64,000 nt of DNA from Cyanobacterium aponinum PCC 10605. Lineage in GTDB: Bacteria; Cyanobacteriota; Cyanobacteriia; Cyanobacteriales; Cyanobacteriaceae. The notes under the pieces are model-generated. The model was not told the DNA's origin. It saw only the letters and a program-made list of their open reading frames with translations, and did no database searches. Numbering within the stretch: the stretch's first letter is position 1; each line of letters opens with the position of its first letter. Where the stretch lies: the NCBI RefSeq assembly GCF_000317675.1, contig NC_019776.1, forward strand, positions 682,001 to 746,000, given 5' to 3'. The position numbers and the translations under genes were made by a program. Positions 20,273-29,065 of the stretch are shown one piece after another.

Positions 20273-22924
20273 ATGTCAAAAACTCTGATCCATCAATATC
20301 GCCGAGACTTAGAAAGCCGAAAAAGATACGGTGGTAGCCGTAATGAAAGTTCCATTCGCTACGCTTTTGCAACCCTTCTCAACGGTTATTGTAAGCCGAA
20401 GGATTTTTTATTGGTGGAGGAGTTAAGCATTAACAGTCGTTTTAACAAGCCGATTCGTCTTGATGGTATTGTTAAAGATGCCTTGCGTCTCGATTGGGGA
20501 TATTGGGAGGCAAAAGACGAAAAAGACTCTTTAGATGCTGAAATTGAAGCAAAATTTAATAAAGGTTATCCTAACGATAATATTCTCTTTGAAGATAGCC
20601 AAACCGCCGTTTTAATTCAAAATGGCAACGAATCCCTCCGCATTAATATGGAGGATGATGACGCATTAGATACTTTACTTAACCAATTTTTAGACTATGA
20701 AAGGGCAGAGGTTAAAGACTTTCGACAGGCTATCAGTAATTTTAGTCAAGACTTACCCATCATAATTGATACTCTCAGAAAACTGATCGATAGTCAATCA
20801 CCTTTTCCTAAAGTCGAGAGGGAAGTAATATCCACTCCCTCTAATTCTAATTCCCCTCTCCCAGTGGGAGGGGGGTTAGGGGTGAGGGTAAATCAAAACT
20901 TCATCAATGCGAGAGATAAATTTTTAAAAATCTGTCAAGAATCCATCAATCCAGACATCACCATTGACGATGTAAGAGAGATGATTATTCAGCATATTTT
21001 GACAGAGGATATATTTACAAATATTTTTAGTGATGCCCAATTTCACCAAGAAAATAACATCGCTCGACAATTAAATGAAGTTATCAAAACATTTTTTACA
21101 GGTAGCGTAAAAAAGAACACTTTTAAAACCATTCAAAGTTATTATAATGCTATCATTCGCACTGCTTCTAGTATCGTTAATCATCAAGAAAAACAAAAGT
21201 TTTTGAAAGTAGTTTACGAAAATTTCTATAAAGCCTATAACCCGAAAGAAGCAGACAGATTAGGCATAGTTTATACTCCTAATGAGATAGTTAAATTCAT
21301 GGTACAAAGTACCGATTATTTATTAGAAAAACACTTTCATAAGACATTAGGGGATAAAGGAGTAGAAATATTAGATCCTTGTACTGGCACTGGCACATTT
21401 ATAACAGAAATATTAGATTATTTATTAACAAGAGATATTGAATATAAATATCAAAAAGAGATTCACTGCAATGAGATGTCGATTTTGCCCTATTACATAG
21501 CAAATCTCAATATTGAATATACTTATCAACAAAAAACAGGAGAATATTTAGAGTTTAATAATATCTGTTTAGTGGATACTTTAAATCCTACCGATACGGG
21601 AGAAAAACAGATGGATTTATTCTCGATGAATGAGGAAAATACAGACAGAATTAAAAGGCAAAATAAGAAAAAAATCTCAGTTATTATTGGTAATCCTCCT
21701 TATAATGCAAAACAAGAAAATTTTAATGATAATAATGCCAATCGTAAGTATGAAACTATCGACAAAAGAATAAAAGATAGTTATATCAAAGAAGGCACAG
21801 CCCAAAATCAAATCGTTGTTTATGATATGTACACCCGTTTTATTCGTTGGGCAACGGATAGGTTAAATGATGAGGGAATTATTGCTTTTATTACTAATTC
21901 TTCCTTGATTGATGCAAGAGCTTTTGATGGTTTTAGAAAGTGTTTAGAAAATGAATTTGACTATATTTATATTATTGATTTAGGAGGAAATATTAGGGCA
22001 AATCCGAAGTTATCAGGCACAACTCATAATATTTTTGGTATTCAAACAGGAGTAACTATTAGTTTCTTAATTAAGTCAAAAAAAGAAGTCAAATCACCAT
22101 GTAAAATTTATTATAGTCGTCGCCCAGAATTTGAAACTAATAAAGAAAAACTAGATTTTATTAGTAAAAATGCTTTAGAAAATATTGAGTTTGAAACGAT
22201 TAAACCTGATAAAAAACATAATTGGATTAATCAAACGGATAATGATTTTGATGATTTAATTCCTTTAATTAATAAGGATGTAAAAGCTGGAAAAACTAAA
22301 GCAGTTAAAAATGAGGAAACGGGAGAGTTAGAAAACAAGATTTGTGAGGAGGCAATTTTTCAATTATTCTCTATAGGGGTACAAACTTCAAGAGATGAAT
22401 GGGTATATGACTATAGTTACAAAAATCTGGCTAATAAAATGAAATTTTTTACAGATATTTATTGTCAAAGTATTGATAGTAACTCAATAGATTTTACCAT
22501 TAAATGGAGTTCATCATTAGAGAATTATTTTCAAAGAAAACTCAAAATAAAATTTGATAAAAAGCTGATTATTACAAGTCTTTATCGTCCTTTTTTCAAA
22601 TTAAATCATTATATAGAAAAACTATTTAATCATAGATTAACCTCAAATCATTATCAATTTTTTGGGGAAGACTTAAAACAAAAGAATATTTTAATTGCAA
22701 TTTCTGGTGTAGGATTTAATAAAAATTTTCAATGTTTAGCATCTGATTTATTAATTGGTGGTGATACATTAGAAAAAACTCAATGTTTGCCATTATATAG
22801 ATATGAAGAAGGAGAGAGAATAGAGAATATAACTGATTGGGCATTGGAGAAATTTAGAGAATATTACCAACCCTCACCCCCCAACCCCCCTCTCCCAAAG
22901 GCGAGGGGGGAGAAGAGGGAGTAA
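20273..22924 (+). CDS. Adenine-specific restriction-modification methyltransferase, 5' part of a split gene
   Basis: The 883-residue product carries an N6-adenine methyltransferase core: SAM motif LDPCTGTGTFITEILDYLL and catalytic IIGNPPYNAKQ. Residues 50-115 contain a possible PD-(D/E)XK nuclease (LDGIVKDALRLDWGYWEAKD). The layout resembles single-chain type IIG/ISP enzymes. The natural C-terminus is missing: after ITDWALEKFREYYQ the frame enters a GC-rich repeat encoding PSPPNPPLPKARGEKRE and stops. The expected continuation (EDIFHYVYGVLHNPEYREKY) is in the next gene, in another frame, behind a DUF559 nuclease. A second copy of the repeat is in frame near residues 194-207 (SPLPVGGGLGVRVN). 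Confidence 0.85.
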   Translation: MSKTLIHQYRRDLESRKRYGGSRNESSIRYAFATLLNGYCKPKDFLLVEELSINSRFNKPIRLDGIVKDALRLDWGYWEAKDEKDSLDAEIEAKFNKGYPNDNILFEDSQTAVLIQNGNESLRINMEDDDALDTLLNQFLDYERAEVKDFRQAISNFSQDLPIIIDTLRKLIDSQSPFPKVEREVISTPSNSNSPLPVGGGLGVRVNQNFINARDKFLKICQESINPDITIDDVREMIIQHILTEDIFTNIFSDAQFHQENNIARQLNEVIKTFFTGSVKKNTFKTIQSYYNAIIRTASSIVNHQEKQKFLKVVYENFYKAYNPKEADRLGIVYTPNEIVKFMVQSTDYLLEKHFHKTLGDKGVEILDPCTGTGTFITEILDYLLTRDIEYKYQKEIHCNEMSILPYYIANLNIEYTYQQKTGEYLEFNNICLVDTLNPTDTGEKQMDLFSMNEENTDRIKRQNKKKISVIIGNPPYNAKQENFNDNNANRKYETIDKRIKDSYIKEGTAQNQIVVYDMYTRFIRWATDRLNDEGIIAFITNSSLIDARAFDGFRKCLENEFDYIYIIDLGGNIRANPKLSGTTHNIFGIQTGVTISFLIKSKKEVKSPCKIYYSRRPEFETNKEKLDFISKNALENIEFETIKPDKKHNWINQTDNDFDDLIPLINKDVKAGKTKAVKNEETGELENKICEEAIFQLFSIGVQTSRDEWVYDYSYKNLANKMKFFTDIYCQSIDSNSIDFTIKWSSSLENYFQRKLKIKFDKKLIITSLYRPFFKLNHYIEKLFNHRLTSNHYQFFGEDLKQKNILIAISGVGFNKNFQCLASDLLIGGDTLEKTQCLPLYRYEEGERIENITDWALEKFREYYQPSPPNPPLPKARGEKRE
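20851..20893 (+). repeat. GC-rich palindromic repeat family E, in frame in the methyltransferase
   Basis: CCCCTCTCCCAGTGGGAGGG followed by GTTAGGGGTGAGGGTAAAT encodes the linker SPLPVGGGLGVRVN. It has the same orientation as the copy at 23297-23340 and the reverse orientation to the one at 22869-22923. Confidence 0.75.
22869..22923 (-). repeat. Family E repeat, left border of the DUF559 cassette
   Basis: It runs CCCTCACCCCCCAACCCC, then a CTCTCCC...GGGGGGAG hairpin. It is the reverse complement of the copy at 23297-23340, so the DUF559 reading frame is bounded by inverted repeats. It contributes the last 16 or so codons and the stop of the upstream methyltransferase frame. Confidence 0.75.
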
Positions 22925-22932
22925 ATATAAAT

Positions 22933-23952
22933 GTGTCAGAAATAATGGGGGCGAAACGTCAAATACTACGAGAATTATTGGAAAAGGCTAGAGAGTTAAG
23001 AAAAAAACAAACTTCCACAGAGAAAATTTTATGGGAATGTTTACGAGGAAATAGATTTTTTGGTTTTGAATTCCGTCGTCAACATAATATTGCTTCATTT
23101 ATTGTCGATTTTTATTGTCATGGTGCAAAATTAGTTATTGAAATTGATGGGAAAATTCACGATGAGAAAAATCAAGAAAGTAACGATAAAAACAGAGATG
23201 AGTGGTTAAAAAGTCAGGGATTAAAAGTCTTAAGAATCAAAAATGAAATAATAATCAATAACCTAGAAGAAGCCTTAGACATAATTGCAGAAAACTTACT
23301 CCCCTCTACCACAGGAGAGGGGTTGGGGGTGAGGGTAAATAATATTACCAAAGAGGATATTTTTCATTATGTTTATGGGGTTTTACATAATCCAGAATAT
23401 AGAGAAAAGTATGAGTTAAATTTAAAAAGAGAATTTCCCAGAATACCTTTTTATGACGATTTTTGGCAATGGGCAAATTGGGGTAAAAAATTGATGAATT
23501 TACATCTTAATTATGAGGAAATAGAGCCTTATAATTTAAAAAGAATTGATATACCCCTTAAATCTCAATCCCCGTTAATTTCTGTTAATAATGATGAGGA
23601 AAGATCCCCCCTAACCCCCCTTCATAAGGGGGGAAATGTGCCTAAGGTTAAGTTAAAAGCGGATAAAGTTAACCATAAAATTATTATTGATGAGGTGACT
23701 ATTTTAGAACAAATACCACCGTTAGCATGGGAATATAAGTTAGGAAATCGCAGTGCTTTAGAATGGATTTTAGATCAATATAAGGAGAAAAAACCAAGGG
23801 ATAAAACCATAGCAGAAAAGTTTAATAATTATCGTTTTGCTGACTATAAAGAGCAAGTAATTGATTTATTAATGAGGGTGACAACTGTTAGTGTTGAGAC
23901 AATGAATATTATTAATCAGATGAACAATTCAAGGGAATTGAAGTCTAATTAA
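22933..23952 (+). CDS. DUF559 endonuclease domain fused to the C-terminal part of the methyltransferase
   Basis: Residues 5-125 are a DUF559 (Vsr-like) nuclease domain: RKKQTSTEKILWECLRGNRF, FRRQHNIASFIVDFYC and KLVIEIDGKIHD, with the D and ExD acidic residues intact. After a repeat-encoded linker (LLPSTTGEGLGVRVN) the sequence becomes the missing end of a type IIG/ISP enzyme (EDIFHYVYGVLHNPEYREKY, FPRIPFYDDFWQWANWGKKL, LGNRSALEWILDQY, the probable target-recognition region). A second, different palindromic repeat encodes RSPLTPLHKGG near residue 225-235. The start is a GTG at 22933; an ATG at 22945 gives a DUF559-typical N-terminus and is equally possible. Eight bases separate it from the upstream stop. 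Confidence 0.8.
   Translation: MSEIMGAKRQILRELLEKARELRKKQTSTEKILWECLRGNRFFGFEFRRQHNIASFIVDFYCHGAKLVIEIDGKIHDEKNQESNDKNRDEWLKSQGLKVLRIKNEIIINNLEEALDIIAENLLPSTTGEGLGVRVNNITKEDIFHYVYGVLHNPEYREKYELNLKREFPRIPFYDDFWQWANWGKKLMNLHLNYEEIEPYNLKRIDIPLKSQSPLISVNNDEERSPLTPLHKGGNVPKVKLKADKVNHKIIIDEVTILEQIPPLAWEYKLGNRSALEWILDQYKEKKPRDKTIAEKFNNYRFADYKEQVIDLLMRVTTVSVETMNIINQMNNSRELKSN
23297..23340 (+). repeat. Family E repeat, right border of the DUF559 cassette
   Basis: CTCCCCTCTACCACAGGAG is followed by AGGGGTTGGGGGTGAGGG. It is the inverted partner of 22869-22923. Immediately outside each border the 11-mer AATATTACCAA occurs (22860-22870 and 23341-23351). Confidence 0.75.
23603..23634. repeat. GC-rich palindromic repeat within the fused gene
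   Basis: GATCCCCCCTAACCCCCCTT pairs with AAGGGGGG to form a hairpin. It lies in frame and encodes RSPLTPLHKGG. A related sequence (GATCCCCCTAAATCCCCC) stands between two genes at 30845-30873. Confidence 0.7.
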
Positions 23953-27740: not shown

Positions 27741-27849
27741 AAGGGGCTTAAGCCCCTTGCTAAAAACCCCTACCACCTGCAACCTGCAACCTGCAACCTG
27801 ACACCTGACACCTAACCTTATCGGGTATTCTTAAACCAAACTGAGGTTA
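27738..27849 (-). repeat. Dispersed repeat family A, copy 4, reaching into csx2
   Basis: On the minus strand it begins TTAACCTCAGTTTGGTTTAAG and continues through GGTTGCAGG units into a GGCTTAAGCC palindrome (around 27743-27760). Its first 32 or so bases are the last codons and stop of the csx2 gene. Together with family B it fills the murT-csx2 gap (27527-27817). Confidence 0.85.
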
Positions 27850-29065
27850 GATTAAGTTGAGGGAATAAATTCGCCAGAATTTGAGGTAATTCTTGAGTAT
27901 ATCTTTGTAAAACTTTACTAGAGAATTGCTCACTATTCATTTGACAATGGGCGATATTATTTCTATTTCTTCCTAATTGTGACCAAGTATCATCTAATTG
28001 TTTTACATCTTCAATGTGTTTAGTTATTTCCTGCTCATAAAATTTTATTCTTTCAGGATTATTTCCACTCATAGCATTTAACTGATTTTCTATATTTTTA
28101 CGGGCTTCTTTATCTAAATAATTATCATTTTCTAAAATTGCTAAAGTTGTGACAAGCCATTCTCTTGCTAATAAAATTGCTTGAGTACCTAAACCTTTTT
28201 CCACATACCATTTAATTAATAAATAGTGTTTTTTAATAATAAGTTTAGGATCTGCTTTATCTTGATTTTCAAGGGCAAATTGAGCGTAATCTTGTTCAAT
28301 TTTATCAATAATTAATTCAAAAGGCTTGGCAAAAATACCAACTTCTTCTCTAATTTCTTCTCCAGAATATTTTGTTAAATGATGGGCTGAAGTTAATAAT
28401 TCAACTGGTCTAATAAACTCAATATTTTCTGATATTGTACTTATAGTTGACCCTAAATTTCTTAACTTATTAGGCTTAATTTCTTCGGTTTTGGCTTTAC
28501 CTGATCTGAAAAAATCAATCTGAATATCTGCTAATAATTGCCCTAATTTTTGAGATGAACCAGTATTAATAAATGTGTCGGTAGCAGTTAACCAATCTAA
28601 TAATTTAATAGCTGGAGTTAAGTCAAATATAGATGCTCGATTGTTTTTTGGGTCATATTGTCCATAATAAACCCCTTTTATTTTTACATTTCTTGCTTTT
28701 TCTAAGAAAGCTGAAGCTAATAAAACAATCACAGGAATAGAGCGAAAAGCATGGGTAATGTCAAATATAATTTCGCTATTTTCTGGTACTGATTCCACTA
28801 CTTTATCAAATAATTTCCATATATCATCTTCATCTGTTCCTGATGGTATATCAATATAAGATAAATCAAATTTATTATCTATTTTATCTCTTAGATGATT
28901 TCCGTGAATTTTTATTGCTTCTTTGGTGGTAAAAACTTTTATTTCTTGGGCATTGAAAAAATGTGCGATCGCTTCTATTACATATTCAGTTTCATATTGT
29001 TGATTTTGCCATGTATAGGAGGTTAATTTATAATCACCAGTACCGATAAAACTTAGTAAAATCAT
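27818..29065 (-). CDS. csx2: Csx2/TIGR02221-family CARF-HEPN ribonuclease
   Basis: The 415-residue protein has an N-terminal CARF domain (residues 1-165: ILLSFIGTGDYK, FDITHAFRSIPV) and a C-terminal helical HEPN domain with the RNase motif R368-x4-H373 (RNRNNIAH). Family members are ancillary effectors of type III CRISPR systems; their CARF domains bind cyclic oligoadenylate made by Cas10 and activate the HEPN nuclease to cut RNA non-specifically. It ends the CRISPR operon. The last ten codons and the stop come from a dispersed repeat, giving the ending LTSVWFKNTR. Confidence 0.88.
   Translation of the reverse strand: MILLSFIGTGDYKLTSYTWQNQQYETEYVIEAIAHFFNAQEIKVFTTKEAIKIHGNHLRDKIDNKFDLSYIDIPSGTDEDDIWKLFDKVVESVPENSEIIFDITHAFRSIPVIVLLASAFLEKARNVKIKGVYYGQYDPKNNRASIFDLTPAIKLLDWLTATDTFINTGSSQKLGQLLADIQIDFFRSGKAKTEEIKPNKLRNLGSTISTISENIEFIRPVELLTSAHHLTKYSGEEIREEVGIFAKPFELIIDKIEQDYAQFALENQDKADPKLIIKKHYLLIKWYVEKGLGTQAILLAREWLVTTLAILENDNYLDKEARKNIENQLNAMSGNNPERIKFYEQEITKHIEDVKQLDDTWSQLGRNRNNIAHCQMNSEQFSSKVLQRYTQELPQILANLFPQLNLTSVWFKNTR

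Follow-up and report, generated by a model that had tools for sequence, protein, structure and literature searches.

A DUF559 nuclease gene bordered by inverted palindromic repeats inside a restriction-modification gene of Cyanobacterium aponinum PCC 10605: a putative mobile unit without a transposase

The window, that is the whole stretch of DNA analysed here, covers 64 kb of Cyanobacterium aponinum PCC 10605 (NC_019776.1, 682,001-746,000, forward strand), and all positions are given in its own numbering. It contains a restriction-modification (R-M) gene that is distributed over two plus-strand reading frames. The first (20273..22924) encodes the 5' part, namely a coupler, an N6 methyltransferase and the first half of the specificity domain, with Pfam matches to ISP_coupler, N6_Mtase, Eco57I and positions 1-183 of Type_ISP_C; the second (22921..23952, with the downstream ORF at 22933..23952) encodes a DUF559 nuclease and then the remainder of the specificity domain, matching positions 182-342 of the same profile (23329..23868, +, E=1.6e-50). 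Since profile positions 1-183 lie in one ORF and 182-342 in the next, the specificity domain is broken at a single point; the initial annotation had indeed described a methyltransferase frame that is split and resumes its C-terminal part in the DUF559 frame.

The host had been regarded at first as a bare methyltransferase; its sequence identifies it instead as a bifunctional R-M enzyme of the DrdV/LlaBIII group (Pfam Type ISP), with a PD-(D/E)XK-like motif of its own. Like the Type IIG/ISP single-chain R-M enzymes (DrdV-like 7lo5, LlaBIII), it aligns across the domain set, and its coupler, N6 methyltransferase and specificity domain have the expected order and are homologous to solved enzymes; unlike them, it is not encoded by a single uninterrupted ORF, being split and having its specificity domain broken up by the nuclease cassette. 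L004, a homologue without the interruption, can be aligned over its full length with PDB 7lo5 (a single-chain adenine methyltransferase/R-M enzyme, presumably DrdV), and it also aligns with LlaBIII and LlaGI. The motif, LDGIVK...WEAKDEK (20453..20527, +, read in the translation), falls in a region conserved in the aligned L004 and 7lo5 and may be catalytic; as the window protein has this motif near its N-terminus, the host is probably complete as an R-M enzyme and DUF559 would represent a second nuclease.

The nuclease occupies a variable loop of the host specificity domain, with GC-rich palindromic repeats in inverted orientation at both borders. Its Vsr/EDxHD-like DUF559 domain (22975..23295, +) matches PF04480 with E=4.6e-34 and keeps the invariant E...E-x-D-G-x-x-H residues; a single-sequence AlphaFold prediction of the region gave a pLDDT of 43 and was therefore left unused. 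The borders were scored with repeat model R1, built from 31 sequences among which is the window 5' border copy: the 5' border (22869..22919, +) reaches 48 bits and the 3' border (23291..23337, -) 40.1 bits. The two form an inverted repeat (I1) of 28 nt, 82% complementary, in agreement with their first description as inverted copies. A solo copy of the same family is found in frame within the R-M ORF (20842..20890, -, R1, 49.1 bits), and a weak, degenerate match within the ORF (23607..23640, +, R1, 10.9 bits, E=0.14) is an uncertain further copy.

The two reading frames overlap at 22858..22924 (+), as given by the stop positions: frame B, with its last stop at 22855, can be read from 22858 onwards, and frame A ends at a stop at 22922, so that the frame break is inside the 5' repeat. 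This repeat includes a run of six C (22877..22882, +), which sequence comparison shows as C7 in six S06 homologues; one added base, e.g. C6 to C7, joins both ORFs into 1226 residues (1227 codons including the stop). At the sequence level, the split in the window is explained by one base in this C-run, whose loss, either true, phase-variable or due to a sequencing error, would have divided an originally fused ORF. The nuclease-specificity fusion proposed in the initial annotation is literal for the split ORF, but in relatives such as L021 the whole host contains the nuclease inside one continuous ORF.

The same annotation reported a copy of the 11-mer AATATTACCAA beside each border. Both are present, the first (22860..22870, +) encoding the conserved (E)YYQ and the second (23341..23351, +) the conserved (N)ITK in the homologue alignment; however, the window has the 11-mer at a third place too, and the codon phases of the two flanking copies differ. 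Their different phases, the ancestral residues on both sides, which uninterrupted homologues also have, and the lack of signal in 48 loci rule out the 11-mer as a target duplication. In those 48 loci the sequence shared by the flanks outside the repeats has a length of 3.90 versus 3.77 in shuffled pairs, the window being the sole outlier, and the target-site duplication outside terminal repeats that defines DDE-type IS or MITE elements is absent. Intein splicing blocks (an N-terminal Cys, a C-terminal His-Asn before Cys) are also absent at the window insertion, whose junctions, YYQ/PSPP and VRVN/NITK, differ from those of the inteins at L102, L107, L108 and L110.

Alignment with uninterrupted homologues, the check suggested at the outset, places the insertion point in a variable loop flanked by FREYYQ and ITKEDIF; in most of the homologues spanning it, this loop is a short linker. 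The loop can be empty, repeat-only or nuclease-bearing: seven S06 paralogues contain GC-rich repeats alone, without nuclease; L021 has DUF559 and repeats in one continuous ORF, and DUF559 is found here also in L073, L074, L075 and L079, while L103 has a different nuclease lineage and a different repeat, indicating at least two origins at the loop. In all these other cyanobacteria (L021, L073, L074, L075, L079 and L103) the nuclease has flanking repeats; the same arrangement lacking repeats, named initially as evidence against a mobile cassette, was not among them. In L001, L005 and L009 the loop (host residue ~866) is filled by a second, unrelated repeat, NVKRASSPSEDNRQDAC, and the loop is thus an insertion hot spot. 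In the host tree L011 and L020, both empty, are the partners of the window (83/94 support) and of L021 (99/99), respectively; four changes are needed and at least three are forced. Separate gains and several losses both fit this pattern of sequences, and for the group of the window a single ancestral insertion followed by repeated loss is possible. No empty/filled pair was found among near-identical strains, so that the ends of the element lack base-level definition. In L041 and L058 a further interruption of several hundred bases is found in the same R-M family at another point (host residue ~608).

DUF559 is present in 91 of 145 genomes of the class. Inverted palindromic repeats bracket 64 of 84 cyanobacterial DUF559 loci, with about one expected, if bracketing is defined as an inverted repeat in the 300-nt flanks above the control 99th percentile; about a quarter of the loci have no significant flanking repeats. 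Using the same cut-off, a flank score >27, borders of this kind were found at 34 of 52 further loci, mainly from Alphaproteobacteria, Chloroflexota and Bacteroidota. Borders of the same kind in other DUF559 genes were the second check suggested at the outset. Nuclease clades extend over several host families; one well-supported clade of 13 members includes Eco57I, DUF1156 and MmeI hosts and one solo nuclease. Repeat similarity tracks nuclease similarity (Mantel r=0.49, p<0.001, 0/2000 permutations as high, without same-host pairs). Where host sequence adjoins the nuclease at both ends (about 31 loci), nuclease and host share strand and frame, the exceptions being the window and L084, where the host gene is also broken; these loci are not all independent, because some share descent. 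Together, the insertion point, the shared border type and a nuclease lineage that crosses host families give good support to the original proposal that the nuclease was inserted as a mobile cassette. Few DUF559 matches were found on plasmids and one partial relative on viral contigs. A decayed DUF559 fragment near a TnpB-like gene and a Y1 transposase was seen at L069/L071 (G000:C1:1699320), and Halobeggiatoa (G149) has 19 distant DUF559-like matches, mostly in frames of ~375 residues.

The nuclease family has relatives among homing enzymes. A DUF559 profile of 32 sequences, aligned to PDB 3hrl with E=1.6e-31, also gives a weak, sequence-only match to the mobile-intron protein 3r3p (E=8.4e-4, 68 positions), presumably I-Bth0305I, which is the homology to a proven EDxHD homing endonuclease. 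In addition, DUF559 fills the intein endonuclease slot at the DNA methyltransferase motif DPTCGSGTT in four cyanobacterial loci (L102, L107, L108 and L110), and L261 is a fifth, similar case; in these inteins (DPT-C...HN-CGSGTT) a GC-rich repeat-like peptide is seen near the intein start. Unlike the EDxHD/Vsr-like homing endonucleases, the window copy is outside any intein, translated within its host and bracketed by palindromes.

The organisation of the unit resembles that of RAYT/REPIN systems, in which few enzyme genes per genome each adjoin their own palindromic repeats (PMC3116915, PMC3733652). As in a REPtron, the gene has palindromic repeats on either side; these are scattered in many copies, frequently as inverted doublets, and their type tracks the enzyme lineage. 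The gene between them, however, encodes DUF559 and not the Y1 tyrosine transposase of RAYT, the repeat consensus (GCCCTCACCCCYAGCCCCTCTCCC-loop-GGGAGAGGGG) has no GTAG/CGTC tag, and the units lie in frame within R-M genes. The palindromic elements within ORFs of Rickettsia (RPE; CGTC REPs in PMC3733652) are likewise translated in frame within genes, whereas no dedicated enzyme is reported for them (PMC3733652) and the DUF559 repeats travel with a nuclease gene. A literature search, mostly outside subscription journals, found no report linking DUF559 with palindromic repeats.

The best reading is that of a mobile nuclease with its repeats, of RAYT/REPIN-like organisation and having no transposase, for which we infer movement and cleavage. 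With a probability of about 0.6, the DUF559 nuclease gene and the palindromes at its ends constitute one mobile unit, which landed in a tolerant loop of the DrdV-like R-M enzyme and spreads by homing. The nuclease would cut in or close to the palindromes or the host gene, and the unit would be copied during repair or gene conversion, so that its spread would be a form of homing and not DDE-type transposition; surviving insertions would be those that leave a needed modification gene readable.

The strong bias towards R-M hosts is unaccounted for by simple homing. A beneficial fusion is a serious rival, although we consider it rather unlikely: DUF559 could be a useful domain, kept in DNA methyltransferases for restriction, repair or addiction, with the repeats as recombination debris or as a vehicle. 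In Cyanobacteria its identified hosts are Type ISP, MmeI-family, Eco57I, DUF1156 and N6_N4 methyltransferases, one HsdR and one HsdM (host families were carried over to cluster members by BLAST, the host of L111 was assigned by motif, and L105 consists of repeats only); nearly all in-frame hosts are DNA methyltransferase/R-M genes. Solo repeats are found in diverse genes (polA, ligA, mfd, gltB, a UvrD-type helicase, NRPS, GH94, nSTAND and others), as well as in two further R-M genes of the window genome; in this small sample of solo hosts, repeats outside nuclease-bearing genes are mostly in unrelated genes, and the idea that the bias arises merely because R-M genes tolerate any repeat was rejected. 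Also in favour of a useful domain are the catalytic residues, which are invariant (twelve residues of the DUF559 alignment are invariant, window copy included), and the Caulobacter DUF559 protein VsrA, which is functionally tied to a methyltransferase and causes the DNA damage response that follows the absence of a cytosine methyltransferase (PMC12907096). Conversely, a nuclease is already present in the families of many of the hosts (DrdV-like, MmeI family, HsdR), insertion sites vary between and within families, and DUF559 is also found in inteins, where splicing would remove it. In Bacteroidota, moreover, it lies in frame inside LeuRS and IleRS (L183 and L188), with GC-rich repeats nearby, and the R-M preference is therefore strong but not absolute.

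A passive hitch-hiking of DUF559, trapped between two copies of ordinary REP-like palindromes moved by another enzyme, appears improbable. It would suit the copy numbers, since DUF559 genes are few per genome versus tens to more than 100 dispersed repeats (at least 61 copies of the repeat model in the window genome, from at least 27 to 141 in four others, with no more than 150 candidates scored), as well as the S06 homologues with repeats but no nuclease in the loop; however, the repeat type follows the DUF559 lineage across genomes, and the window genome, with three other DUF559 copies, has three nuclease lineages with three repeat types. Y1 transposases were ruled out as the mobilising enzyme of the repeats, as none of 18 genes checked in five genomes is bracketed by repeats of the DUF559 type. 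In intergenic regions of the window genome (G000, L164-L181) there are also at least 18 near-identical, MITE-like 46-nt copies of the repeat family found at the window borders. That the locus is just a decayed R-M pseudogene or an assembly artefact is very improbable: the ORF is split, a single base of the C-run would account for it, and some relatives, such as L084, have broken hosts too, but several genomes share this combination of loop, cassette and borders, the ORF is continuous in L021, and a second cassette of the window genome (L070) is fully in frame within an MmeI-family enzyme, just ahead of its NPPF motif.

The reading as a mobile nuclease-repeat unit has wider implications: the unit recurs in many bacteria, usually in frame in DNA-modification genes, suggesting an overlooked mobile element. 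A broader proposal, which we advance tentatively and at somewhat less than even odds, is that DUF559 and lineage-specific GC-rich palindromes are widespread, unrecognised, transposase-free replicators driven by a nuclease, which seed REP-like repeats in several phyla and preferentially settle in frame in DNA methyltransferase genes. If so, common palindromic repeats of the GGGTGAGGG type would have a candidate mobilising enzyme, and DUF559, a large family of "unknown function", would acquire a function; nuclease genes would be able to spread in frame inside host proteins without introns or inteins. The preference for DNA methyltransferase homes would become testable, with a bearing on how R-M enzymes gain domains.

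Apart from the R-M locus, the window also contains an ORF at 27818-29065 whose product presumably resembles a CRISPR-associated CARF protein (Csx2/TIGR02221-like, putative).
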